Shown: in pieces, positions 30,290 to 49,469 of the stretch
Layout of the letters: each line of letters opens with the position of its first letter
Position numbering within the stretch: position 1 is the first letter of the stretch
DNA from: Sneathiella sp.
Lineage (GTDB): Bacteria; Pseudomonadota; Alphaproteobacteria; Sneathiellales; Sneathiellaceae
NCBI RefSeq assembly: GCF_002694385.1
Contig: NZ_NZMB01000003.1
Location: forward strand, 61,428 to 111,241
DNA: 49,814 nt
Direction: 5' to 3'
Position numbers and translations under genes: made by a program
The notes under the pieces: generated by a model
What the model was told of the DNA's origin: nothing
Database searches by the model: none
The model's input: only the letters and a program-made list of their open reading frames with translations

Positions 30290-30643
30290 ATGACACGCTA
30301 TGAATTCGATCAATTCTGTCGCTCGCTTCCGGCGACAACACATGTCATTCAGTGGGGCGATGCCTCCGTCTGGAAAGTCGGGGACAGGATTTTTGCCATC
30401 TGTTCAAACTGGGGGGCGGGCGAGGGGCCGAAGATCAGCTTCAAATGCAGCGATCTTGCCTTCCGGATCTTGAGCGAACAGAAGGGGATTATTCCCGCCC
30501 CCTACCTTGCCCGCGCCAAATGGGTGCAGCTTGCCCGATCCGGGGCGATGCCGGATGACGATATCCGCGATTACATTCGGGCGGCGCATCGTCTGATAAG
30601 CGGGAAATTGCCAAAGAAGCGGCGTGAAGAACTGGGCCTTTAG
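30290..30643 (+). CDS. MmcQ/YjbR family protein
   Basis: 117-residue protein matching the MmcQ/YjbR family, a small alpha/beta fold similar to a CyaY-type architecture that may bind DNA; function not settled. Typical residues are [41 protein letters not shown] and a C-terminal [17 protein letters not shown]. Divergent from trhO; its stop overlaps that of the convergent FliK-like gene by 4 bases. Confidence 0.83.
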
Positions 30644-32424
30644 GGGCTCGGCGCGGCAGTTCCCTCTTCCCACTCTGCCAAGGGGTCTAGCGGAAAGGCG
30701 GGGCTGGCCCGGAAGGTAAGGTGACCCTTGAGACCGGAAATTTCCATATGTTCGGTGAAGATGCGGCTGATTTCCATCCGCATGGCGTCGGAAAGGTCGC
30801 TATGGCTGCGAATGGCAAGATTGAACTGATGGGCCTTGAACAGGCCGTCGAGTTGCATCTGACCGGAGCGAGTCAAGTTCAGCTCGATCACGAATCTTGT
30901 TGTTTCCGGCTGGCCTTCATTCTCCGGGTTGCCGTGACGGCGATAGAACATTCGCACCTGCCGTAAATTGGCGCCGTCGAAGAAGGGGAAGTTGAGGCTT
31001 TTCCAGTCTTGCCCGCCGGTCTCCCCCTGCAGGCGGCCGAGGCTTTTGAAATCATCGTCGAGCGCCTGCAACAGGGCGCCCCGGCCGCTGCCGCGCAGGG
31101 CACTGGTGAATTCCTGCCCCAGCCATTTGTCGATGGACCCGAGGCTGAGCGCGACGATGAAGAACAGCAGGCTGTTTGAAAGCTGGGCATTGGCCTGCGG
31201 GATCGCCTGACTGATCACATTCTGTGCGATGATCGGATCGGTCCGCGCAAGATGGTTGAGGGCTTCGCGCAAATTCGGCCAGTCCGCCATCAGCGGCTGC
31301 TGCGGGGCCTTGCTCCCGGCAATCCGGAGGTCTCCCTCCGGCAGTGGGAAAGCCGTGATTTCATTGGCAGGGGCGAACTGCATCGTCGTGCCGATAGAGG
31401 GGGGCGTTTTGCTGTTGAAAGCAAGCGTGCCGAGGGGCGTTTGCAATGTCACTCGCGCGAAGACAGTCGGCTCCGCCGCCCGCGCAATGGCGATGACACT
31501 GCCCTGGTAAATTCCTTCGCGCGGGGATAAGGGGGTGCCGGCGGTTTGCGGGCGGATGATAATATTGAATTTTTCCGTGCCTGCCGGGTGTGCAGCCTCT
31601 TGCGGACGCCCGGTTGTCATGCCGGGTGGGGACAGGATTTCCGCGCGGACAAGATGCTGTAGGGGATGGCTCTGCGCGCCGCCGGGGCGCGGCGGCGAGA
31701 GGGGGGGGTGCACTCCGCCTCCCGCCGTCGGGGCAGGATTGTAGGAACGCTGATAGGCTGCGAAACCATGAGAGTGAGTCGTTCCGACATTGCCCGGCGG
31801 CATTTCGAAGCCATCCGGCAGCGGCGGGAGCGTTCTTATCGCGACGGTGGCCGGAGGCGCTGAGGCCGCGGACGGAACTTCCGGTGACGATGGCAAAGGC
31901 GGAGTTGTCGATGGGGCAAGACGCAGGGCCAGAGACGACAAAACAGGTCTATCGGTAGCGACCTGCGCCGGATTAAGCTGGCCCGCTCTGACATAGCCCT
32001 CGGCCGTAAGAGGCGGTTTGTCAATGATTGGCAGCAGCCGAACCTCAAGCGGCGGGCTAATCTCGCGTCCGTTAAAGGCGATGAGGCGGGCCATCACCAC
32101 ATCCTGATGCTGAGTAATTTCAAAAGTGATATGGCTGCCAATCGGAAACTGCAGGGGGGTAGTGATGCGGAAATTACCAAGCTCGGTGTGCAGCACAACA
32201 TGATCGTTGGATGTTTTCGCCATGACTACGGCGTGCAGGACCGTATTTTCCTGTAATTGCCGGGCGGGCGGCTGCGGTTGGCCGTTTTGCGCAGGCAAGC
32301 CGTCTCCCTGCCCGGTGGAAGGGGCGGTGCTGGCGGGCGCAACTGGCCCTTGACCACTGGCAGGTGAAGCCGCGCTTCCTGCAAGGGTTGGTGGGACGCC
32401 GGATGATGCGCGAATGCCGCTCAT
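30640..32424 (-). CDS. FliK-like protein (hook-length control-like C-terminus), second copy
   Basis: 594-residue protein. The N-terminal 300 residues are Pro/Ala/Gly-rich and look disordered. The C-terminal part (FVIELNLTRSGQMQLDGLFKAHQFNLAIRSHSDLSDAMRMEI) resembles the FliK hook-length control domain, though less clearly than the gene at 45.3 kb. Last gene of the fliF-to-flhG operon, 15 bases after flhG. It could be a paralogue of FliK or an uncharacterised flagellar assembly factor. Confidence 0.6.
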   Translation of the reverse strand: MSGIRASSGVPPTLAGSAASPASGQGPVAPASTAPSTGQGDGLPAQNGQPQPPARQLQENTVLHAVVMAKTSNDHVVLHTELGNFRITTPLQFPIGSHITFEITQHQDVVMARLIAFNGREISPPLEVRLLPIIDKPPLTAEGYVRAGQLNPAQVATDRPVLSSLALRLAPSTTPPLPSSPEVPSAASAPPATVAIRTLPPLPDGFEMPPGNVGTTHSHGFAAYQRSYNPAPTAGGGVHPPLSPPRPGGAQSHPLQHLVRAEILSPPGMTTGRPQEAAHPAGTEKFNIIIRPQTAGTPLSPREGIYQGSVIAIARAAEPTVFARVTLQTPLGTLAFNSKTPPSIGTTMQFAPANEITAFPLPEGDLRIAGSKAPQQPLMADWPNLREALNHLARTDPIIAQNVISQAIPQANAQLSNSLLFFIVALSLGSIDKWLGQEFTSALRGSGRGALLQALDDDFKSLGRLQGETGGQDWKSLNFPFFDGANLRQVRMFYRRHGNPENEGQPETTRFVIELNLTRSGQMQLDGLFKAHQFNLAIRSHSDLSDAMRMEISRIFTEHMEISGLKGHLTFRASPAFPLDPLAEWEEGTAAPSP

Positions 32425-36521: not shown

Positions 36522-37895
36522 TCAGGCGCGGGCCTGATAGCGGGCTTCGCCTGCGGCCGCCGGGATATCAATGCCATCATCGGAGTAGAGCTTGAGCTTG
36601 TTCCGCAGCGTACGGATTGAAATGCCGAGAATATTGGCGGCGTGCGTCCGGTTGCCGAGGCAATGATCCAGGGTATTGAGGATCAGGTCTTTTTCCACAT
36701 CGGCAACTTTCCGCCCGACGAGGGTGCTGACCGGTGCAGCGCCTGCTGCGGCAATACTCATGGCGGCGACGCCTGAATGGGTATCCGGTGTGGCGCTGCC
36801 ATCCGGCATCAGGATCGCATCTGCGGTAATGGCATCCCCCTGACACAGCAGAACGGCGCGATGGATAGTGTTTTCCAGCTCCCGCACATTGCCTTTCCAT
36901 GGATTTGCCTTCAGCTTGGCCATGGCACCCTCATTGATCTTGCGCTCGCTGAGGCCATTGGACTCTGAATATTTCTTGGCGAAATGCCGGGAAAGGATCT
37001 CGATATCCTGCGGGCGCTGGCGTAGCGGCGGAATTTTCAGCGTGACGACATTCAGGCGGAACAGCAGATCCTCGCGAAATGTCTTTTCGGCCACAGCTTC
37101 GGCGAGGTCCCGGTTGGATGTCGCAATGATGCGGATATCGACGGGGACCGGCTTTGTGCCGCCGACGCGGTCGATCATCTTTTCCTGAATGGCGCGCAGC
37201 AGCTTGGCCTGAAGCTGAATGTCCATTTCACTGATTTCATCGAGCAGCAGCGTGCCGCCGCTCGCTTCTTCGAATTTGCCGATGCGGCGGGCGATGGCGC
37301 CAGTGAACGCGCCTTTTTCATGGCCGAAGAGCTCGGATTCCAGCAGGTTTTCCGGGATGGCGGCGCAGTTCACGCAGACAAAAGGCTTGTCCGCGCGATT
37401 GCTTTTCGAATGCAGATAGCTCGCCATGACTTCCTTGCCGGTTCCCGTTTCGCCATTGATCAGGACAGAGGCGGAAGAGGGGGCAATCTGATCGGCAAGG
37501 GCGACAACGTCGCCCATGGCGGGATCGGCGAAAACCAGCCGGTTGTTTTCCTGGGAAACGGCTTCCAGAACGGCGGCGATGAGCTCAGGATCCGGCGGCA
37601 GCGGCAGAAATTCCTTCGCGCCCGCCCGGATGGCATTGGCGGCGGCTGTCGCGTCCGTATTCACGCCGCAGGCGATGACCGGCAGATTGATCCGCTCGCT
37701 GGAGAGCATGGAGACGAGATTGCGGATTGGCAGATTGACATCAATCATGGCCATGTCCGCGCCCTTGCCCGCCCGGAGCGATGCCATCGCCATTTCGATA
37801 TCGTCCACATGGCTGACCTTGGCGCCGCGCGACATCGCAATCTGGCTGGCGGCACCGATCTGACCGTTCAGGGAACCGATTATTAGCAACCTCAT
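36522..37895 (-). CDS. flbD: FlbD, sigma-54 activator of late flagellar genes
   Basis: 457-residue activator. The N-terminal receiver-like domain lacks the paired acidic residues (LLIIGSLNGQIG) and the conserved lysine (FLPLPPD), though an Asp is present in MAMIDVNLP. The AAA+ domain has GETGTGKEV, the sigma-54 contact loop GAFTGA, and LLLDEISEM. The Fis-type HTH is NRTHAANILGISIRTLRNKLKLY. In Caulobacter FlbD activates hook genes and represses fliF. GGAGAG precedes ATG. Its likely targets are the sigma-54 promoters near 47 kb. Confidence 0.93.
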   Translation of the reverse strand: MRLLIIGSLNGQIGAASQIAMSRGAKVSHVDDIEMAMASLRAGKGADMAMIDVNLPIRNLVSMLSSERINLPVIACGVNTDATAAANAIRAGAKEFLPLPPDPELIAAVLEAVSQENNRLVFADPAMGDVVALADQIAPSSASVLINGETGTGKEVMASYLHSKSNRADKPFVCVNCAAIPENLLESELFGHEKGAFTGAIARRIGKFEEASGGTLLLDEISEMDIQLQAKLLRAIQEKMIDRVGGTKPVPVDIRIIATSNRDLAEAVAEKTFREDLLFRLNVVTLKIPPLRQRPQDIEILSRHFAKKYSESNGLSERKINEGAMAKLKANPWKGNVRELENTIHRAVLLCQGDAITADAILMPDGSATPDTHSGVAAMSIAAAGAAPVSTLVGRKVADVEKDLILNTLDHCLGNRTHAANILGISIRTLRNKLKLYSDDGIDIPAAAGEARYQARA

Positions 37896-37915: not shown

Positions 37916-38692
37916 TTAGCTGTAGTACTGCACGCGGCTTGCGGGCGGCAGCAGGGTGTTTAACAACATTTCAAGGCGGCGCGGATTTTCCTGCCGGCCG
38001 ATAGAGGCGGCGCCAAGCATGAAGACACGGTTCAGCAGCACTTCCTCGGCGGAATTGCGCTCCAGCTTCGATGCCAGCGGATTAAAGAACATGTTGGCGA
38101 GAACAGCGCCATAAAAGGTGGTGAGCAGAGCGACGGCCATGGCGGGGCCGATGGTGCTCGGGTCATTCAGATTGCCCAGCATCTGGACAAGACCGACCAG
38201 CGTGCCGATCAGGCCCATGGCGGGGGCAACTTCGGCGGCTTTGCGCAGTACGCCCGAGCTGGTGTTGTGTCGCGCGATCATGCCATTCAGGTCATTCTGA
38301 AGAATGCGATTGACTTCCTCTGCGGGCAACCCGTCGATGACAAGCTGCAAGGATTTGCGCTGAAAGCTGTCTTCTTCCAGCATCTGGATGTAGTTTTGCA
38401 GGTGGAGCACGCCTTTCCCGCGGCATTTGTCCGCCAGTTCGAGCATGGAATAGGCGGCGAAATCAGGCGATAAATTCTTGGTGAAGAGGGTGCCCACGAT
38501 AAGCTTCTGCGCCCGAATGACTTCGCTCAGCGAAAAGCTGATTGTGGTGACAAGAAATGTCCCGCCCAACACCAGGAGAACGGAGGGCAGATTAAAGAAT
38601 GACGCAAGCGACCCGCCCAGCAGAACGGCGCCGGTGACCAGCGCGAAACTGCCGAATAGTCCAAGAACGGTTGCCAAGTCAAATCTGTTCAC
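37916..38692 (-). CDS. motA: Flagellar motor stator protein MotA (PomA-like)
   Basis: 258-residue stator subunit with four membrane segments. The start LATVLGLFGSFALVTGAVLLGGSLASFFNLPSVLLVLGGTFLVT resembles the PomA/MotP (sodium) subgroup more than the longer proton-type MotA. The conserved proline-rich channel region VAPAMGLIGTLVGLVQML is present at about 150, followed by IGPAMAVALLTTFYGAVLANM. The partner MotB/PomB gene is not in the window. Lies between fliN and flbD. Confidence 0.88.
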   Translation of the reverse strand: MNRFDLATVLGLFGSFALVTGAVLLGGSLASFFNLPSVLLVLGGTFLVTTISFSLSEVIRAQKLIVGTLFTKNLSPDFAAYSMLELADKCRGKGVLHLQNYIQMLEEDSFQRKSLQLVIDGLPAEEVNRILQNDLNGMIARHNTSSGVLRKAAEVAPAMGLIGTLVGLVQMLGNLNDPSTIGPAMAVALLTTFYGAVLANMFFNPLASKLERNSAEEVLLNRVFMLGAASIGRQENPRRLEMLLNTLLPPASRVQYYS

Positions 38693-40836: not shown

Positions 40837-42513
40837 TTACGAGTCGTGGTAGAGCCAGCTACGGAGAATGGAGATGGCCTCATCGGGGTGTTTGTCGACG
40901 ATTTCGGAGACCTTGTTGAGGGCGGAGGTTCTGACCTGACCGTCCACCTTGTCGATGTCGATCATGTTGTCCACTTCGTTCAGCGTTTCAGATCGTGGAG
41001 CACTGGCCTGGGCCTGACCATGGGCGATTGCGGGGACCGCACCGCCCCCAGCAAGGGCGCCGACAGCACCGGCAGGTCCGGCAAGAGCGGGGGTTGCACC
41101 ACCAAGAGCAAGGGCACGGTTGAGCAGCGGACGGACGACGAGAAGCAACGCCAGTATGGCGACAATCACCAGAACGCCCATTTCGCCAATTTTGAACAGA
41201 TCCTTTTTCGTCAGCCCCATAAAGAGAACGTCGCTTTCGACTTCTGCTTCGGGAAAGGGCTCGGCTACCATGGCGAAAGGCATGTTGACCACCTCGACAA
41301 CATCGCCGCGCGCGTCATCGAAGCCGATTGCCGATTTGACCAGTCGGCTGACTTTTTCCAGCGCGTCTGCTTCCAGCGGCTGGTAGTTTCTGGTTCCGTC
41401 TTCTGCGATAGACGTCTGGCCGTTGACAAGAACGGCGACCGTAAGACGCCGGACCGGCCCGGCTTCCCGTACTTCTGTCGTAACGGTTTTCGAAATTTCG
41501 TAATTGACGGTTTCTTCCGTTCGGGAGGTGGCATTTTCAGAGCTGGAACCGGCGCCATTTCCTGCATCGGCTTCAGGAAGGTTGTTTGCGACGGTAACGG
41601 CCTGATCGCCCGTGGTCCCTTCATTTGAACTGCTGTTTTCCTCAACAAGCTGAGAGGAGCGGACAACCTGGCTGTCGGGATCGTAGGTCTCGGAGTGCAC
41701 GGTAAGCTGGTCGAAATCCATAACCGCGCTGACTTCCGCCCGCACATTGCCCCGGCCAAGCGACTTTTCGAGAAGCTCTTCTATCTGGTCTTTCAGACGG
41801 CTTTCATAAGCGATACGCTTGAAGTCATTTTGTGAACTGATCCCGACGCCCGGCGTTTCCTTGCCATCGCCGCGGGCCAGCAGGTTGCCATTTTCATCGA
41901 CGATTGAAATATGTGACGGGGAAAGTGACGGGACGGCGGATGCGGTCATATGCTGGATGGCGGAAATCTGGTCTTCGGTCAGGCGCCCGCGACCATTGAG
42001 TTTAAGGACAATGGAGGCGCTGGCCTCCCGTTTGTCGCGACTGAAGACTTCCCGCTTCGGCAGGACAAGATGCACACGGGCCGCGGCGACACTGTTGATC
42101 GCGCGGATGGTACGCGCCAACTCACCTTCAAGTGCGCGGACATAATTGACATTCTGGACGAAGCTGGTTGTGCCGAAGGTATCTGAATTGTCGAAAATTT
42201 CATATCCGACGGAACCGCCGTTCGGCAACCCGACTTCCGCCATCTTCAGGCGGATAAGGGCAACCTGGTCTTCGGGAATGAGGATATCACGGCCGTTGGC
42301 TGAAACCTGAAAGGGGATATTGTCCGTTTCCAGCTTGGCGACGATCGAGGCGGAATCCGACGGTTCCAGTCCACCATAGAGAAGCGCATAATCAGGGCTG
42401 CTGATCCGGCTCGCCATCAACATGATCAGCGCGATCAGGCCTATTGCGACTGATCCCAGAATGACAACTTTAACTGTTCCCAAACTTTGAAGAAGCTGGC
42501 TTAGTCCGTTCAC
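40837..42513 (-). CDS. fliF: Flagellar MS-ring protein FliF
   Basis: 558-residue membrane protein forming the base ring. The first membrane helix is VVILGSVAIGLIALIMLMASRI; the ring-building region has YALLYGGLEPSDSASIVAKLETDNIPFQVS and YVRALEGELARTIRAINSVAAARVHLVLPKREVF. A second helix (IGEMGVLVIVAILALLLVVRPLL) precedes the FliG-binding tail (WLYHDS at the end). First gene of a ten-gene operon running to 30640. Upstream lie a TTAA-type site and a candidate FlbD element. Confidence 0.96.
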   Translation of the reverse strand: MNGLSQLLQSLGTVKVVILGSVAIGLIALIMLMASRISSPDYALLYGGLEPSDSASIVAKLETDNIPFQVSANGRDILIPEDQVALIRLKMAEVGLPNGGSVGYEIFDNSDTFGTTSFVQNVNYVRALEGELARTIRAINSVAAARVHLVLPKREVFSRDKREASASIVLKLNGRGRLTEDQISAIQHMTASAVPSLSPSHISIVDENGNLLARGDGKETPGVGISSQNDFKRIAYESRLKDQIEELLEKSLGRGNVRAEVSAVMDFDQLTVHSETYDPDSQVVRSSQLVEENSSSNEGTTGDQAVTVANNLPEADAGNGAGSSSENATSRTEETVNYEISKTVTTEVREAGPVRRLTVAVLVNGQTSIAEDGTRNYQPLEADALEKVSRLVKSAIGFDDARGDVVEVVNMPFAMVAEPFPEAEVESDVLFMGLTKKDLFKIGEMGVLVIVAILALLLVVRPLLNRALALGGATPALAGPAGAVGALAGGGAVPAIAHGQAQASAPRSETLNEVDNMIDIDKVDGQVRTSALNKVSEIVDKHPDEAISILRSWLYHDS

Positions 42514-42578
42514 AGGCGCCCCACTCGATTAAAATATGCGTAAAATTATTTCACTTCCTGAAAAATACGCGGAGGAGA

Positions 42579-42593
42579 TAAACAACTGGTTAA
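42579..42593 (-). promoter_or_regulatory. Possible CtrA site upstream of fliF
   Basis: On the minus strand TTAACCAGTTGTTTA is TTAA-N7-TTTA, one base off the CtrA box. It lies about 66-80 bases upstream of the fliF start. In Caulobacter the fliF operon is CtrA dependent. No sigma-54 match was found here. Confidence 0.42.
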
Positions 42594-42603
42594 CGGCAGG
42601 CAA

Positions 42604-42617
42604 TTTTTGCCGGGCAG
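42604..42617. promoter_or_regulatory. Candidate FlbD (ftr-like) element near fliF
   Basis: TTTTTGCCGGGCAG (minus strand CTGCCCGGCAAAAA). An identical 14-mer lies at 47078-47091 between the two sigma-54 promoters. It is about 90-105 bases upstream of fliF. Assignment to FlbD is inference. Confidence 0.45.
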
Positions 42618-42702
42618 TCGGAAAATTTTGCCTAGCATGTTTCAACAGGGCGTCAGGGAAAGAGAGCGGGACAGGGGAGATATTTCTGAATACGCCAAAA
42701 TA

Positions 42703-42727
42703 AAAGCCCGGCGGAATGCCGGGCTTT
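42703..42727 (-). terminator. Intrinsic terminator downstream of sciP
   Basis: A 10-bp stem AAAGCCCGGC (42703-42712) with GCCGGGCTTT (42718-42727) and a 5-base loop is followed on the minus strand by TTATTTTGG. It lies 30 bases after the sciP stop and insulates the fliF promoter region. Confidence 0.85.
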
Positions 42728-42756: not shown

Positions 42757-43056
42757 TCAGTCATTTTTGTGAATGGGATCGCTGGGGCGATATTCCTGAA
42801 TACGGGTCGTCCGGAGCCCCGGAAGGCCATGTTTGTCGATTGCTTTTTGCCAGGACAGAAATTCCTCGACAGAAAGTGTGTAGCGGCGGCATGCATCATC
42901 CAGACTTATAAGTCCGCCGCGAACGGCAGCAACGACTTCCGCCTTGCGCCGGATAACCCATCGTTTGGTATCCTTGGGCGGCAGATCATGGATCGTCATC
43001 GGCTGACCATCCAGCCCAATGATACGATTTACCTTGCGGTCCATTTGCGACTGCAT
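42757..43056 (-). CDS. sciP: SciP, CtrA inhibitor (DUF1153)
   Basis: 99-residue helix-turn-helix protein of the DUF1153/SciP family. In Caulobacter SciP binds CtrA at target promoters and blocks activation. Conserved stretches are GLDGQPMTIHDLPPKDTKRWVIRRKAEVVAAVRGGLISLDDACRRYTLSVEEFLSWQ, the last part being the HTH. GAGG lies about 10 bases before ATG. It sits between two flagellar operons, with TTAA-type sites upstream that fit CtrA control. Confidence 0.93.
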   Translation of the reverse strand: MQSQMDRKVNRIIGLDGQPMTIHDLPPKDTKRWVIRRKAEVVAAVRGGLISLDDACRRYTLSVEEFLSWQKAIDKHGLPGLRTTRIQEYRPSDPIHKND

Positions 43057-43113: not shown

Positions 43114-43148
43114 TTAACAAACCGCTAATGAGGTTGGTTAATTTAACC
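43114..43148. promoter_or_regulatory. TTAA-type (CtrA-like) sites upstream of sciP
   Basis: TTAACAAACCGCTAA (43114-43128) is TTAA-N7-CTAA, one base off the CtrA box. A near-palindrome GGTTAATTTAACC follows at 43136-43148. They lie about 58-92 bases upstream of the sciP start. CtrA activates sciP in Caulobacter; binding here is inferred. Confidence 0.48.
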
Positions 43149-43206: not shown

Positions 43207-44529
43207 TTACCGTTTCAGACGGATCAGCTCTTCCAGCATTTCATCGGCCGTGGTGATGATTTTGCCGGACGCGGAATAGGACCGCTGGGTGACGATCATG
43301 CGGGTAAATTCTTCCGCAATATCCACTGTTGACGCTTCTGTCGCCGAAGAAATTATCTTGCCCGCGCCACCAATGGTGGCTTCGCGCAGGGTAAAGGTGC
43401 CGGCTTCGGGCGTTTCGTCATAGGCATTGCCATCCCGGCTTTGCAAGCCATTGGGGTTGGCGAAGGTGGCGATTGGAATCTTGTAGATTTCCTGCGAGGT
43501 GCCGTTATCGAACTTGGCCACCAGAACACCCTGCTCATTGATGTGTACAGATTCAAATGCGCCAAATAGTGCGCCGTTCACGTCAGAGGAAACAAGTTCG
43601 GATACTGCGCCTGATTGCGTGAACCCATTGGACAGACCATCAGTACCAAAAGAGAGATCAATCGCCTGCGGGGAATTGATCCCCATTGTGGCGGCCCAGG
43701 GGATGCTGATGGAGTTGGGCAGTGTTGTCGCGCCCATATCCAGTGTACCGTCAGAGTTGAAACCGACAATAGCGGAGGTGATCATGTTTTCCGCGCCGTC
43801 GCCGTCCGTATCAGCCGTTATCTCAACCGTCCATTCGTTGGGTGTCACGCCGGAGCCGGTTCGCAGGAAGTTAAGCGTTACCGTATGAGCGGCACCGAGA
43901 CTGTCATAAATCTGGAACGAGCGGACGAAATGCGGCTCGACTGTACCATTGGTCATGTCACCCGCCACATAGCCGGGACCATAGGTTGTCTGGTTGGCGG
44001 AAAGATTGGCTTGTAGTGAGATGCTGGAGGTTGCCTCGGCATTGCCCGTCAGACCGGTGATATTGACCGGCGACAGCGCCGCAAGATCTGACCGGTTGGC
44101 GGGAATGTTTCCATCGGGATCAATTTCCCAGCCTTGCAGATAATAACCCTGTGCATTGCGAAGCAGGCCGTTCGCATCCGGCTCGAACGTACCGGCGCGC
44201 GTAAAGACATAGTTATCGCCGGTCGTGCCGGGGTTCGCCGAAGAGCTGACGACAAAGAAACCATCGCCAGCAATGGCCATATGGGTATCGCTTGTCGAGC
44301 CGGAGACCAACCCCTGCCGATCAATCTGCGTACGTGGATGGACCTGAACACCGCCGGCAGTATAGGTGGTGTCCGTTGAGCTTTCGGTTACAAGGGTGGA
44401 AAAGATTGCTTTCGTTCCCTTGTAGCCGATGGTGTTGGTGTTCGAAATATTATCCGAAATCGTTGCCATCGCCATAGATTGCGCGGCCAATCCGGAAACA
44501 CCGGAAAACATTGCTGCAGTCAAACTCAT
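43207..44529 (-). CDS. flgE: Flagellar hook protein FlgE
   Basis: 440-residue hook subunit. The N-terminus (MSLTAAMFSGVSGLAAQSMAMATISDNISNTNTIGYKGTKAIFSTLVT) has the conserved NTIGYK segment, and the C-terminus (EFTRMIVTQRSYSASGKIITTADEMLEELIRLKR) has the paired coiled-coil end of axial proteins. AGGAG precedes ATG. Secreted by the flagellar export apparatus without a cleaved signal. Third gene of the fliK-flgD-flgE operon. Confidence 0.95.
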   Translation of the reverse strand: MSLTAAMFSGVSGLAAQSMAMATISDNISNTNTIGYKGTKAIFSTLVTESSTDTTYTAGGVQVHPRTQIDRQGLVSGSTSDTHMAIAGDGFFVVSSSANPGTTGDNYVFTRAGTFEPDANGLLRNAQGYYLQGWEIDPDGNIPANRSDLAALSPVNITGLTGNAEATSSISLQANLSANQTTYGPGYVAGDMTNGTVEPHFVRSFQIYDSLGAAHTVTLNFLRTGSGVTPNEWTVEITADTDGDGAENMITSAIVGFNSDGTLDMGATTLPNSISIPWAATMGINSPQAIDLSFGTDGLSNGFTQSGAVSELVSSDVNGALFGAFESVHINEQGVLVAKFDNGTSQEIYKIPIATFANPNGLQSRDGNAYDETPEAGTFTLREATIGGAGKIISSATEASTVDIAEEFTRMIVTQRSYSASGKIITTADEMLEELIRLKR

Positions 44530-44587: not shown

Positions 44588-45286
44588 TCAGGCGGACGGT
44601 TCATTCAGATTTTGCTGGGTGACGGAATTGATATAGTCCAGACCGACCGGAACTTTGCCGATCTTCAGAACGGTTTCACCATTGAGGGTTTCAACGCTTG
44701 TGGCGATGCCTTCGAAACTATAGTCAACCTGCACCTTGCTGCCCCCGGCTGTTTTGCCGTTCACGACGAGATAATAAACGCCGTCGCTTGCGGCGGCGCC
44801 GCTGGATTTTGTGCCATCCCAATGATACTGCTGTGCGCCAGCCGCGGCGCTGTCTTTCGTCTCACTGAAGACGCGCGTACCATTCTGGTCATAGATTTCA
44901 TAGGTTGTCTCACCGGCGCTGCTGCCGAGGCTGAGATTCCAGCTCGCCTCCCCGCCCTCAAGGGCGGCCACATTCAGGTTTGTCCCGATGGATTTGCCAA
45001 GATAGTTGATCATCGTGGCGGACATCATATTTTGCTGTGACATCTGCTGAAGCTGAACCAGTGTTTCCAGATTCTGGTTGGTTGCGATCGCCTGTTCGAC
45101 ATTTGTGAAATTCACCAGTTGATTGGTGAATTCCGTGGTGTCCGTCGGGTTGAGCGGATCCTGATTGGTGAGCTGGGTTGTCAGCAATGTCAGGAAGTCA
45201 TCAAAATTATTCGCCAGATTTTTTTGTGCGGTTGTGGCCCCGCCATTCTGGGACTGGTTTGCAGAGGTTATTTCCGTCATGGTCAT
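44588..45286 (-). CDS. flgD: Flagellar hook-capping protein FlgD
   Basis: 232-residue scaffold that caps the growing hook. The N-terminal conserved region NNFDDFLTLLTTQLTNQDPLNPTDTTEFTNQLVNFTNVEQ (residues 25-65) is diagnostic. A beta-rich, FlgD Ig-like domain follows with YHWDGTKSSGAAASDGVYYLVVNG. Lies between fliK and flgE. Confidence 0.96.
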   Translation of the reverse strand: MTMTEITSANQSQNGGATTAQKNLANNFDDFLTLLTTQLTNQDPLNPTDTTEFTNQLVNFTNVEQAIATNQNLETLVQLQQMSQQNMMSATMINYLGKSIGTNLNVAALEGGEASWNLSLGSSAGETTYEIYDQNGTRVFSETKDSAAAGAQQYHWDGTKSSGAAASDGVYYLVVNGKTAGGSKVQVDYSFEGIATSVETLNGETVLKIGKVPVGLDYINSVTQQNLNEPSA

Positions 45287-45325: not shown

Positions 45326-46924
45326 TTAGACCTGAATATCGAGATTGCCGTCGTTCCTGCCGCTGCCTGTGTAGGCGGGCAGGGGCGTCTCCGCCCAGAT
45401 GTCATCGTCCGGCAGGCGATCAGGTGAGGGCTCAAGCCCGGCAAATCCGGCGCCTCTTTCATGTCCTTCGCCACCGTCCTGACGGAGGCTGAAATTCAGG
45501 CTGTTGGATCCGGTGTCGAAACCGGCATTCTGAAGGGCGCGTTCAAGACTGCGGGCATCCCGCTGCAACAGATCAAGGGTTTCCTGGCGATCAACCGAAA
45601 CAGCCGCCAGAAGGCGTCCGTCATGACCGATATCGAGTTTGACTTCAACCCGGCCGAGTTCCGATGGATGCAAACTGATCTTGATACGGTCATGACCTTC
45701 CTTGATCGCGCTGCTGATATGGGTTGATAGCTGCTCCGCGACCGGGGCATGAGCGGCGCGGGCCGCATTGGCGGCCTGGCTGGCGTTATTGGCGGCTGTC
45801 GCCTCCACATGCTGAATGGCGCCGGTCGGGGCTGTCGGCATTATCTGTGCTGTTGTATCGGGCGTCATGCCTTGCTGCGTGGAGGACGGCGCTGGATGGG
45901 TTGTCTGTGGGATCAGGCCGCCCATCTGCATCTGCGCATTGGCGAGTGCGGACGGGGCTGCATTTGGCGTTGCTGCCGGGTTGGCGGCCATACTGGCCGT
46001 CACCAGTGTCGTGCTGCTGGCAAGGGTGGACTGAAAGCTTTGCTTCTTGCCTGCATTGGCGGCGAGGCTGCCATTGCCATCGCGCAGCATCTCGGCAATC
46101 TTGGCAGAGAGAATGTCTTTTTCGCTCATTTTGGCGGTTGCTTCCGCGCGGACCGTTTCAAGGGCTTTGGGCGGCACTAAATCAGTCGCAACCTCCGCCT
46201 TGCCGGATGTGGGCTGGTTTGCTTGCGGGGCGCTTCTCTCGCGATTCCCGGCTGCTGCGGCCTGCATTAATGCGGATTCGGCAGTCTTGGCTTCACCACT
46301 CGCGTGTGGTGCTACTTTAGGGTCAGCCGTTGCGCCCGCGTCTTTTGGCGGCTGCGTTGGTAAGAGTGCGCTGGCGCCCGCCTCTTTTTGCGCTAGCGTT
46401 GGCACGGGGGCCGCGTCGCCCTGCTTTTTGATCTCAGCCTTTCCCGGATCGGTAATGATGCCTTGCGTCAAGTCGATCTCGGGTTGGGCGTCCGCGGGCA
46501 TCCCGGTCGGCAGAGCGATGGTTTCCTCATTCCCGTTAGCGGTCTCCACAGGAGAGGGCTCTCCGTCTTTTGTTAACGGATTACCGGTCGTTGCAGCGCC
46601 TTTTGTCTCCCCCTTCGGGAGAGCAGGCGAAGGATCGGCCCGCTTGTCATCTTTATCTGTCGGCGCCTCTGCCGTGGTGGTCTTCTCGGAATTAGCGGCA
46701 CTTTTATCCATCTTCCCGTTGTCTGGCGTTCCATTGGCAGTCGAAGCACCGTCGGCGTTCTTTGCGGACGGCCGCTCTTTTGCGGCGGGGTCCTTCAGGA
46801 AGCTGGAAAACCCGTCTTCTCCCGCCTTGGGAACATCCTTGTCCCGGCGGGGTGGCTCGCTTGTCATTCCCAATACTTGACCAACATCCATGACATGTTT
46901 CTCGCAATTAATTCTGTCCCGCAT
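45326..46924 (-). CDS. fliK: Flagellar hook-length control protein FliK
   Basis: About 532 residues. A long Ala/Pro/Lys/Glu-rich, probably disordered N-terminal region leads to the hook-length domain (LSTHISSAIKEGHDRIKISLHPSELGRVEVKLDIGHDGRLLAAVSVDRQETLDLLQRDARSLERALQNAGF). FliK measures the hook and switches export specificity. Start is uncertain: ATG 46924 has GAGGA 9 bases upstream but only about 15 bases of leader after the predicted sigma-54 start; ATG 46891 is the alternative. An upstream TTG at 46954 falls inside the promoter and is ruled out. Confidence 0.88.
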   Translation of the reverse strand: MRDRINCEKHVMDVGQVLGMTSEPPRRDKDVPKAGEDGFSSFLKDPAAKERPSAKNADGASTANGTPDNGKMDKSAANSEKTTTAEAPTDKDDKRADPSPALPKGETKGAATTGNPLTKDGEPSPVETANGNEETIALPTGMPADAQPEIDLTQGIITDPGKAEIKKQGDAAPVPTLAQKEAGASALLPTQPPKDAGATADPKVAPHASGEAKTAESALMQAAAAGNRERSAPQANQPTSGKAEVATDLVPPKALETVRAEATAKMSEKDILSAKIAEMLRDGNGSLAANAGKKQSFQSTLASSTTLVTASMAANPAATPNAAPSALANAQMQMGGLIPQTTHPAPSSTQQGMTPDTTAQIMPTAPTGAIQHVEATAANNASQAANAARAAHAPVAEQLSTHISSAIKEGHDRIKISLHPSELGRVEVKLDIGHDGRLLAAVSVDRQETLDLLQRDARSLERALQNAGFDTGSNSLNFSLRQDGGEGHERGAGFAGLEPSPDRLPDDDIWAETPLPAYTGSGRNDGNLDIQV

Positions 46925-46949
46925 CGCGCGGTTTCCTCGGCTGTTATCA

Positions 46950-46965
46950 AGCAAGGCTCGGGCCA
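46950..46965 (-). promoter_or_regulatory. Sigma-54 promoter of fliK-flgD-flgE
   Basis: On the minus strand TGGCCCGAGCCTTGCT matches the TGGCACG-N4-TTGCW consensus except for one base, with the GG-N10-GC spacing exact. The predicted start is near 46939. Confidence 0.78.
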
Positions 46966-47077
46966 GTTTTTTAAATTTGAGAAAAACGTACTTATATCAA
47001 TAGGATAAATAAGAATTTCCGAAAACCGGAGAGGGAAAAATCGACCATACGTCACTCAACTTTTTCCGGTTGGACAT

Positions 47078-47091
47078 TTTTTGCCGGGCAG
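47078..47091. promoter_or_regulatory. Candidate FlbD (ftr-like) element between fliK and flgK promoters
   Basis: TTTTTGCCGGGCAG, identical to the element near fliF at 42604-42617. It lies about 55 bases upstream of the flgK -24 and about 113 bases upstream of the fliK -24, both enhancer-like distances. The rest of 46966-47145 is AT-rich with no gene seen. Confidence 0.48.
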
Positions 47092-47145
47092 AAACAGCCG
47101 TTCCCAGCGCCGTTCTTTAGATGTGTCGTGGAGATTTGTAAAAGC

Positions 47146-47161
47146 TGGCATCATAATTGCT
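47146..47161 (+). promoter_or_regulatory. Sigma-54 promoter of flgK
   Basis: TGGCATCATAATTGCT keeps TGGCA, the exact GG-N10-GC spacing and TTGCT. The predicted start is near 47172, giving flgK a leader of about 200 bases. Confidence 0.75.
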
Positions 47162-47223
47162 TGGTATGTGTCAGAAATCTTGTCTGGGCGGCAATCCGTT
47201 CGTCCCGATTAAGGGTAGAAGTT

Positions 47224-47376
47224 ATGAAAACTATTGAAAATCAAAGGATTGCAATAATTTTTCCAGTCGCTCCCGGCAGCTGTGGGAAGAGGCTGCCCGG
47301 TATCTTTTGCCATGGGGCGGCTGATTTTGCCGCTGCCAACCTTCTCTTTTCATTCGCCCTGGAGCAAATGTCATGA
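47224..47376 (+). CDS. Possible 50-residue leader ORF upstream of flgK
   Basis: Starts MKTIENQRIAIIFPVAPG, with AAGGG 8 bases before ATG. It ends FALEQMS with a TGA that overlaps the flgK ATG by 4 bases. It lies entirely inside the predicted sigma-54 transcript leader. No family is recognised. It may couple translation to flgK, or be a chance open frame; the leader also holds a GGCAGC/GCTGCC hairpin at 47275-47297. Confidence 0.35.
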   Translation: MKTIENQRIAIIFPVAPGSCGKRLPGIFCHGAADFAAANLLFSFALEQMS

Positions 47377-49469
47377 GCCTGAATGCAATTATGAACTCCG
47401 GTATCAGCGCCATGTTGACAAACCAGAGCGCGCTTAATGTGACCTCGAGCAATATCGCCAATGTGAATACGGATGGATATGCGCGTAAGACGGTTGATTT
47501 CAGTGCGGTTTCAATCAACGGCTTCGGCTCCGGAGTGGAGATTGCCGAAGTCCGGCGCATTACCGATGAGTATATTGCCAAGGAGCTTCGGCTCGCGACG
47601 GCCGGTTCCGAGCAATATAAGGCGATGTCAAAGCTGTATGATCAGCTTCAGTCTCTGCTCGGCGATCCGGCCGCAAACAGCTCCCTGACAGGTAAGCTTG
47701 ATAGCCTTCATTCGGCCTTTGCGGCGTTGACGACGGATCCGACGATGCCCGTTGCCCGGAAGACAGTGCTGAATGAAATTTCAAGTTTCGGGGTTGAGGC
47801 GAACCGGCTTCTCAGCCAGATACAAGTGTTGCGAAAAGAGGCGGACAGCCATATTGGACAGGAGATTGAAACCGTCAATAATGCGCTGTTACGTATTCAT
47901 GAACTGAATATTGAAATCCGCTCCGGGAACCAGAGCAGCCGACCGGTGGGCGATCTGCTCGATCAGCGGGATCAGGCTCTGGCCGAAATTTCAAAGATCA
48001 TGGATGTCAAAACCTATCCGATGACGGATGGCGCAGTTGCTGTTGTCACCGATACCGGCCATCAGCTTCTCGATTATCAGCCGCGTCAGCTTGTCTATTC
48101 TCCGGCGGCATATGTCGGCAGCGATACGATTTTTAATCAGATCACCATTAATAACTATGATGTGGCGACGAAAGAAGTGGCGGCGACGGGGTTGCCGCTG
48201 GATTCCGAATTGACAAGCGGGTCTCTGCGCGGCTGGCTTGATATGCGTAATACGGAATTGCCCAATCTCGCCAGTCAGATAGGCGCCCTCTCGGCGGGTG
48301 TGGCGGAGCAGCTCAATGCGGTGCATAACGAAAACATCACCGTGCCGCCGCCCGCTGTCATGACGGGGGTGAATTCCGGTGTGCTGGCAACTGATGCACA
48401 TGGGTTTACAGGGCAGGCGACATTTTACAGCTTTGATGCGAATAATAACGTCCTGGCCTCTCATACCGTCGATTTTGACGACCTGGGAACCAATACGATG
48501 GCCGATGTTCTGGCCGAGGTGAATGGAGCGCTGGGTGCGGGGACTCTCTCCCTTGCCAATGGTGTCTTGACTATGTCCGCCCAGGGCGGTGCAGCGGGTA
48601 TTGGCATTGGGCAGGATGCGGCGAGCCCGTCTGAACGGGGCGGGCGCGGATTTTCGCATTTTTTCGGCATGAATGATCTGGTCCGGGCGGATATTAAAAC
48701 ATCCTTTGCAACGGGAATGTCCGCAGGAGACGCCCATGGATTTAGCGGCACCACGACGCTGGAACTGATGGGGCCAAATGGCGAAAGTCCGGTTTCGATG
48801 ACGCTCGATTTCGGGGCGATTGGCGGGACGATGGCGGATGTCGTCAATGCCATCAACAGTAATCTTGGTCCCTATGCGACGGCATCGCTCGATGCCAGCG
48901 GGGCACTGGTGTTCAGCACAGCCACCGGCTATGCGGGATATCAGATTAACGTTACGGAAAATAGCTCTCTTCGCGGCGCGACAGGCGTCAGCTTTCCGGA
49001 AATGTTCGGGGTCGGCCTGCGTTATCCGGCGGACGCCGGACTGGGGTTTACCGTCAATCCGTCGATTGACGCCAATCCACAGCTTCTTGCCACCGCCAGA
49101 ATTGATCCCGCGGGCACGCCAGCGATCACGGTGGCGGATAACCGGGGGGCGCTCGCGTTTCAGGAACTGGCGACGGCAAGCATTGCCTTTCCGACGATAG
49201 GCGGCCTTACGGGTTCCACGGTTTCTCTTGGGGATTATGCTGCACAGATCCTGGCAAAATCCGGGCTGGATGCCGCCCGCGCTGACAGCCTGCATAGTGA
49301 TCGTTCGGCCCTGGCCACGGAGTTTCAGAGCCGGATGCAGGAAGTGTCCGGCGTCAATATGGATGAGGAACTCGCCAATCTCATTGTTTTTCAGAATGCC
49401 TATAACGCGTCCGCGCGCATCATTACGACGGCGCGCGAAATGTATGACATTCTGATCGATCTCGTTTAG
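47373..49469 (+). CDS. flgK: Flagellar hook-associated protein 1, FlgK
   Basis: 698-residue hook-filament junction protein. The N-terminus MSLNAIMNSGISAMLTNQSALNVTSSNIANVNTDGYARK and the C-terminus (LANLIVFQNAYNASARIITTAREMYDILIDLV) form the conserved axial coiled coils. The middle has a duplicated module: DAHGFTG at 341 and DAHGFSG at 453, each followed about 33 residues later by TMADV. This makes it longer than the roughly 550-residue E. coli FlgK. GGAG lies 8 bases before ATG. Followed by flgL after 10 bases. Confidence 0.95.
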   Translation: MSLNAIMNSGISAMLTNQSALNVTSSNIANVNTDGYARKTVDFSAVSINGFGSGVEIAEVRRITDEYIAKELRLATAGSEQYKAMSKLYDQLQSLLGDPAANSSLTGKLDSLHSAFAALTTDPTMPVARKTVLNEISSFGVEANRLLSQIQVLRKEADSHIGQEIETVNNALLRIHELNIEIRSGNQSSRPVGDLLDQRDQALAEISKIMDVKTYPMTDGAVAVVTDTGHQLLDYQPRQLVYSPAAYVGSDTIFNQITINNYDVATKEVAATGLPLDSELTSGSLRGWLDMRNTELPNLASQIGALSAGVAEQLNAVHNENITVPPPAVMTGVNSGVLATDAHGFTGQATFYSFDANNNVLASHTVDFDDLGTNTMADVLAEVNGALGAGTLSLANGVLTMSAQGGAAGIGIGQDAASPSERGGRGFSHFFGMNDLVRADIKTSFATGMSAGDAHGFSGTTTLELMGPNGESPVSMTLDFGAIGGTMADVVNAINSNLGPYATASLDASGALVFSTATGYAGYQINVTENSSLRGATGVSFPEMFGVGLRYPADAGLGFTVNPSIDANPQLLATARIDPAGTPAITVADNRGALAFQELATASIAFPTIGGLTGSTVSLGDYAAQILAKSGLDAARADSLHSDRSALATEFQSRMQEVSGVNMDEELANLIVFQNAYNASARIITTAREMYDILIDLV

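Follow-up and report, generated by a model that had tools for sequence, protein, structure and literature searches.

A divergent hook switch is already known from Caulobacter, going by the titles of work by Mullin and Newton from 1993 and by Benson and others (Benson et al., 1994), and the 1993 title names a sigma-54 promoter together with downstream elements, ftr2 and ftr3, for flaN and flbG. We take flaN to be flgK and flbG to be fliK. According to passages of one further paper, the ftr4 element that precedes fliF in Caulobacter is bound by FlbD, which represses fliF and stimulates middle and late genes (PMC3930126). Passages of another describe how the loss of FliX raises a fliF reporter and lowers a fliK reporter (PMC3096577), and both sources treat it as established that FliX ties FlbD to basal-body assembly in Caulobacter (PMC3096577, PMC3930126).

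The window analysed here, by which we mean the whole stretch of 49,814 nucleotides, comes from a Sneathiella-like alphaproteobacterium whose FliG is 95% identical to that of S. chungangensis. The host draft genome consists of 3.6 Mb in 30 contigs and is 98% complete. On the minus strand the window carries fliK-flgD-flgE, sciP, the string fliF-fliG-fliH-like-fliN-motA-like-flbD-flhA, and then flhF- and flhG-like genes, with flgK on the plus strand and divergent from fliK-flgD-flgE. The genes needed for the comparison are as follows.

47373-49469, plus strand: flgK (hook-associated protein 1), FlgK_D1 match at 4.4e-38
45326-46924, minus strand: fliK (hook-length control), Flg_hook match at 1.2e-13
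44588-45286, minus strand: flgD, by profile match
43207-44529, minus strand: flgE (hook protein; FlgE/F/G family), by profile match, named by its place after flgD
42757-43056, minus strand: sciP (CtrA inhibitor family), lying between flgE and fliF, NF051866 at 139 bits against a cut-off of 100
40837-42513, minus strand: fliF (MS ring), first gene of its string, by profile match
36522-37895, minus strand: flbD (activator), NF050807 at 772 bits

In-frame ATGs at 46924, 46891, and 46867 are candidates for the fliK start codon; the mechanically assigned TTG at 46954 was rejected, as it falls within the fliK-facing sigma-54 promoter. The first-pass annotation had placed flbD inside the fliF operon, and this very probably holds because the two genes belong to the same string, with intergenic gaps of 6-20 bp from fliF to flbD. 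A MotA/PomA-like proton channel gene (37916-38692, minus strand) lies within that string between fliN and flbD, and a 594-residue frame without a Pfam or NCBIfam match (30640-32424, minus strand) directly follows the flhG-like gene. The putative function of SciP as a CtrA inhibitor is taken only from the name of its NCBIfam family. A CtrA-like box (TTAG-N7-TTAA) is found at 43114-43128 on the minus strand, 57 bp upstream of the sciP ATG, and a terminator-like hairpin follows sciP at 42703-42727.

Both of the Caulobacter regulators have counterparts in this organism. FlbD matches the curated NCBIfam model over its full length, against a cut-off of 750 bits, and 4 Caulobacter genomes, C. segnis among them, share its recognition helix (the HTH stretch GNRTHAANILGISIRTLRNKLK) without a single change. 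FliX is encoded elsewhere in the host genome, at C8:34009-34425 (PF10768, 62 bits against a cut-off of 25). The genome has 4 matches to the FlbD model in all, and the 3 besides FlbD are other NtrC-type regulators.

The control region between fliK and flgK holds two promoters and four dyads, the latter located with the matrix described below.

46950-46965, minus strand: sigma-54 promoter (-24/-12) of fliK-flgD-flgE, TGGCCCGAGCCTTGCT, strict pattern, in 19 of 20 family genomes
47033-47045, no strand: weak FlbD-like dyad, GGGAAAAATCGAC, score 5.5, first of a pair between the promoters
47073-47085, no strand: FlbD-like dyad, GACATTTTTTGCC, score 10.9, overlapping the 14-mer at 47078-47091
47146-47161, plus strand: sigma-54 promoter (-24/-12) of flgK, TGGCATCATAATTGCT, strict pattern, in 20 of 20 family genomes
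47299-47311, no strand: FlbD-like dyad, GGTATCTTTTGCC, score 6.8, downstream of the flgK promoter, within the leader
47319-47331, no strand: FlbD-like dyad, GGCTGATTTTGCC, score 11.5, second dyad of the flgK leader, 20 bp from that at 47299

Two outward-pointing sigma-54 sites had been read here from the single sequence, and both are present where they were placed and are conserved in the family (these counts hold for the search pattern used and include the host). The strict pattern has 12 matches in the host genome against 5 for a control, and the fliK/flgK pair accounts for 2 of the 12. Transcription would be expected to start near 42555 for fliF, near 46939 for the fliK operon, and near 47172 for flgK, and the last two starts would place the 47073-47085 dyad at about -93 relative to the flgK start and about -140 relative to the fliK start.

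The first-pass annotation had also drawn attention to a 14-mer between the promoters, TTTTTGCCGGGCAG at 47078-47091, that recurs upstream of fliF. The recurrence is real, with 14 of 14 positions identical at 42604-42617. As for the suggested genome-wide search for copies gathered at sigma-54 flagellar promoters, the exact 14-mer does occur at only these 2 places, hook and fliF, in the host draft genome, but its four one-mismatch copies all lie within open reading frames that look non-flagellar by eye. With up to 2 mismatches there are 101 matches in the genome versus 66 for a reversed control, and because this count is not far above background the 14-mer is a poor search motif. On these counts, together with the one-mismatch copies in frames, we rejected the 14-mer as the functional unit in favor of the dyad; this spans 13 bp, GGCAA-N3-TTGCC, and the 14-mer corresponds to one of its arms plus flank. 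The dyad nature of the element, its partner dyad at fliF, the two dyads in the flgK leader, and the CtrA-like box at fliF all go beyond that earlier reading.

The dyad matrix is symmetric, 13 bp long, and was derived from the second fliF dyad of 21 relatives, with the host genome, the outgroup G001, and all hook regions left out of training. Its best matches in the window are the two fliF dyads. The 407 bp from the fliK promoter to flgK contain 2 of the 8 window positions that score at least 10, against an expectation of 0.033 based on the remainder of the window (Poisson 5e-4). Taken alone, the host hook region gives a modest signal, since its 2 matches of at least 10 are equalled by 23 of 3000 shuffles. 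The fliK-flgK regions of 20 family genomes, host included, together have 32 such matches, spread over 16 of the 20, and 300 dinucleotide shuffles of the same regions have a mean of 2.3 and a maximum of 6. When 150 of 2850 first-look candidates in the host genome were scored with a sequence-only model of the fliF site, the hook dyads were not returned, and a filter-free scan of the window with the same model found the 47073 dyad at an E value of 3.8 and no leader dyad.

The dyads of the hook region fall into two clusters, one between the promoters and one in the flgK leader. At a threshold of 5, the cluster between the promoters is matched in all 20 family regions and the one in the leader in 19 of 20, and counterparts of the weak dyad at 47033-47045 lie 41-43 bp from the second dyad in four genomes (G004, G006, G008, and G019). 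The earlier proposal of one FlbD enhancer serving both hook operons is not supported in that form, given that there are two clusters and that one of them is in the flgK leader.

This arrangement was compared with the hook regions of four Caulobacter genomes (C. segnis, C. zeae, and strains RHG1 and Root1455), which are not the mapped C. crescentus sites. In all 4, a sigma-54 site faces fliK, one dyad lies between the genes (234-271 bp before flgK; GGCGTTTTTTGCCGGG in C. segnis), and another lies in the flgK leader (53-69 bp before flgK; GGCAGATTTCGCC in C. segnis). A flgK-facing sigma-54 site was found by the strict pattern in none of the 4, and RHG1 shows TTGGCGCCGTCCTTGC by eye. Several of the other 9 hook regions in the same comparison, from which 3 of 16 genomes had been dropped for a weak FlgK match (L195-L197), have no match for one or both sigma-54 sites. 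The Sneathiella region thus resembles Caulobacter flaN/flbG in its divergent hook operons, its fliK-facing sigma-54 site, its flgK-leader dyads, its FlbD and FliX, and a between-gene dyad ending in TTTTTGCC, while its dyads differ in score and in spacing, with 40 bp separating the two between the promoters in Sneathiella. FlbD-like sites lie between outward flgK and fliK promoters, and the further sites downstream of the flgK promoter (47299-47331) have Caulobacter counterparts. The motif shared at these orthologous promoters was recognized by comparing genome sequences and not from the printed ftr motif.

Upstream of fliF the same type of dyad is found twice, next to a CtrA-like box.

42620-42632, no strand: FlbD-like dyad A upstream of fliF, GGAAAATTTTGCC on the plus strand, by dyad matrix and family comparison
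42599-42611, no strand: FlbD-like dyad B upstream of fliF, GGCAATTTTTGCC, overlapping the 14-mer at 42604-42617, by dyad matrix and family comparison
42579-42593, minus strand: CtrA-like box of the fliF promoter, TTAACCAGTTGTTTA (TTAA-N7-TTTA), by a pattern found in 23 of 23 family genomes

The box has the form TTAAC-N4-TGTTTA or TGTTCA in every one of these 23 genomes, and a -10-like TA is kept 11 bp after it in the family. The dyads that precede it within the genus are broadly GGCAA-N3-TTCC and CCCGGCAA-N3-TTGCC, with a spacing of 21 bp in 19 of 21 same-genus relatives, as in the host, and 22 bp in the other 2. In the host their centres lie upstream of the start of the box, by 12 and 33 bp, and dyad B ends 5 bp from the box. 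A model of the tandem dyads, from which the 2 of 21 relatives with 22-bp spacing (L067 and L072) were dropped, finds fliF in the host genome at an E value of 1e-9 among the 150 of 2962 first-look candidates scored; its other 6 matches are partial, with E values of at least 0.26, and one of them is fliF itself on the opposite strand. The same two relatives account for the 6 of 84 site rows dropped from the single-site model. The hairpin after sciP was considered as a further FlbD site and rejected, as it has only GCCCGGC in common.

The fliF block is like Caulobacter ftr4 in having this dyad type beside a CtrA-like box (GGTAAATCCTGCC in Caulobacter, a dyad that by its place is probably ftr4), and it is unlike ftr4 in where the dyads stand. 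In most of the Caulobacterales compared, a single dyad lies over the predicted -10, its centre 31 bp downstream from where the box starts, and in our reading of the sequences the Caulobacter dyad covers the -10-like position after the box. Sneathiella instead has its two dyads upstream, and no dyad was found over the -10 or start, downstream of the CtrA-like box, at the host fliF. The Caulobacter picture, in which FlbD sits over the fliF promoter, therefore does not carry over. The first-pass annotation had proposed feedback on fliF through the same element; the shared dyad type stands, but Caulobacter-style repression cannot be assumed here because the dyads are upstream of the CtrA-like box and the predicted -10 is free.

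We then asked where the best dyad stands relative to the box in other Alphaproteobacteria, using 64 usable loci of the 80 found as best FliG matches (16 had no usable FliF start plus 150 bases upstream) and allowing up to 1 mismatch in the CtrA-like box. At 58 of the 64 loci the best dyad is at one of two fixed places, 19 of them upstream (centred at about -12, counted from the start of the box) and the other 39 downstream (at about +31), and shuffled flanks place a mean of 0.2 and at most 3 dyads there. An independent class-wide sample fits more loosely; its 54 regions with a dyad of at least 10 divide into 25 upstream, 12 downstream, and 17 neither, with no such box at all in 7 of the 17, and two class-wide dyads added later (G166 and G111) are both upstream. 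On a FliG and FliF tree of the 64 loci, built by a quick method and with some weak branches, the upstream label changes 3 times versus 16.6 when shuffled, and the downstream label 6 times versus 20. Two Parvibaculum genomes (L098 and L122) have dyads both upstream and downstream of the box. No earlier description of two operator positions at fliF was found among the titles listed, in the opening parts of their abstracts, or in passages of PMC3930126, PMC3096577, and PMC6180460.

The distribution of the fliF dyad across the class follows that of FlbD. Our class-wide sample comprised 144 genomes, 90 of them with a FliF match, and 78 fliF regions from 77 genomes were taken at first. Genomes were counted as FlbD-bearing at a model match of at least 579 bits, the curated cut-off of 750 being passed by 44 of the 144. 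A dyad of at least 10 is present in 56 of 70 FlbD-bearing fliF regions versus 0 of 9 FlbD-lacking ones, which leaves 14 of the 70 without a dyad of that score. The first count, 54 of 67 versus 0 of 9, corresponds to a Fisher value of 3.5e-6 that overstates independence as the genomes are related; by FliF, moreover, the genomes lacking FlbD are some of the most distant in the sample. Mononucleotide shuffles of the 67 regions have a mean of 0.9 and at most 3. Regions added later comprise G166 and G111, with a dyad, and G098 (152 bases only) and G086, without one. Three genomes with FlbD matches of 470-528 bits (G071, G107, and G086) were set aside from the count of 70 versus 9, and 2 of the 3 have a dyad. 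The sample excludes genomes already used (G000, G002, and G006), regions that were partial or at a contig end (G046, G056, and G163), and weak partial matches (G082, G108, and G114).

Elsewhere in the host genome, the sequence-only fliF-site model found 5 places among the 150 of 2850 first-look candidates scored. The fliF dyads were returned at E values of 0.45 and 0.6. Another place is between fliL and a FlgE/F/G-family gene, flgF by its position, beside a sigma-54-like TGGCACGCTGCTTGC read by eye, and two are inside open frames without a flagellar look, one of them a 202-residue frame near an apparent tRNA end. The 12 strict sigma-54 sites include, besides fliK and flgK, those of a flagellin and of an orphan gene, both of which have dyads of at least 10 upstream, beside the sigma-54 sites. 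The orphan gene (C1:482540-483451; L171, L202) encodes 304 residues without a Pfam or NCBIfam family. All 21 family loci counted, host included, have the sigma-54 site, and 19 of them have a dyad of at least 10; 4 of 25 loci (L221 and L224-L226) were left out as partial or ending early. This conservation suggests that the orphan is likely an undescribed flagellar gene and a member of the flagellar regulon. Open frames of at least 100 residues overlap 6 of the remaining 8 strict sigma-54 sites. One of the 8, at C1:205740-205755 (L170), overlaps an open frame and is preceded, by about 100 bp, by a dyad of 10.9, with no clear flagellar gene behind it; no dyad of at least 10 accompanies the other 7.

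The matrix matches, the co-occurrence with FlbD, the Caulobacter dyads in the same two places, and the identical recognition helix together indicate that the dyad is very probably the FlbD operator (ftr) and that the region is very probably the orthologue of Caulobacter flaN/flbG. FlbD, which the first-pass annotation had named as the factor behind the element, is encoded in the window, and the tracking of FlbD by the dyad and its recurrence at other flagellar sigma-54 sites point to the same protein. It is quite improbable that the shared 14-mer is a chance match or the site of another factor, such as an NtrC-type regulator, IHF, or SciP. Such an origin would accommodate the GCCCGGC that recurs in the hairpin at 42703-42727, the 3 further FlbD-model matches in the host genome, and two-mismatch counts that are not far above background, and it would leave unexplained the conserved fliF block, the shuffle test, the co-occurrence with FlbD, and the identity of the helix.

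We consider it highly likely that FlbD binds these dyads and activates both hook operons, a judgment that does not extend to the sign of its effect at fliF. In the sequence of events we propose, CtrA would start the fliF operon, and FlbD would be made. FliX would hold FlbD in check and then activate it once an early basal body exists, which would set the timing of the hook genes. FlbD would bind as a dimer to the dyads of both clusters, between the promoters and in the leader of flgK (each 13 bp long, GGCAA-N3-TTGCC or a degenerate version of it), and from there would contact the sigma-54 polymerase by looping, so that fliK-flgD-flgE and flgK are switched on. The two fliF dyads, 21 bp apart beside a CtrA-like box, suggest that FlbD would also act back on fliF, its own operon.

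What sign this feedback has is a question with two candidate answers, and the place of FlbD next to CtrA at the Sneathiella fliF fits either exclusion or help. An even chance may be given to negative feedback, in which bound FlbD would repress the fliF operon not by covering the -10 but by crowding CtrA off the box. Repression of fliF is what this protein brings about in Caulobacter, according to passages of PMC3930126 and PMC3096577. The 5 bp between dyad B and the box would favor this answer, as would the membership of flbD in the operon string, although the dyad is 12 bp upstream of the box start here versus 31 bp downstream in most Caulobacterales, and a tandem upstream pair is a normal layout for an activator too. 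That same layout, two dyads in phase (21 bp) that precede the CtrA-like box and leave the predicted -10 uncovered, is what would be expected if FlbD instead co-activates fliF with CtrA in this lineage, giving positive feedback. We know of no precedent for FlbD activating a CtrA promoter, which counts against co-activation, and we regard it as the less probable answer, at perhaps half the weight of repression. Our preference for repression by crowding CtrA is a mild one.

The hook switch of Sneathiella is of a known kind, and it varies in the placement of the dyads at fliF. A speculative extension, which we put forward as doubtful, is that the FlbD operator at fliF favors two positions 43 bp, or about four helical turns, apart around the CtrA box, downstream in Caulobacterales and their kin, upstream on the Sneathiella, Minwuia, and Ferrovibrio side, and both in the two Parvibaculum genomes, and that with the move between them FlbD may have gone from repressing its own operon to co-activating it alongside CtrA. 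As the operator at fliF tends toward one of two set places around this box, reporter fusions could be used to test how flagellar feedback evolved. The comparison as a whole would carry the hook switch of Caulobacter over to a distant lineage of Alphaproteobacteria, with an operator motif that can be tested, and it flags an unnamed orphan gene that likely belongs to the flagellar regulon.
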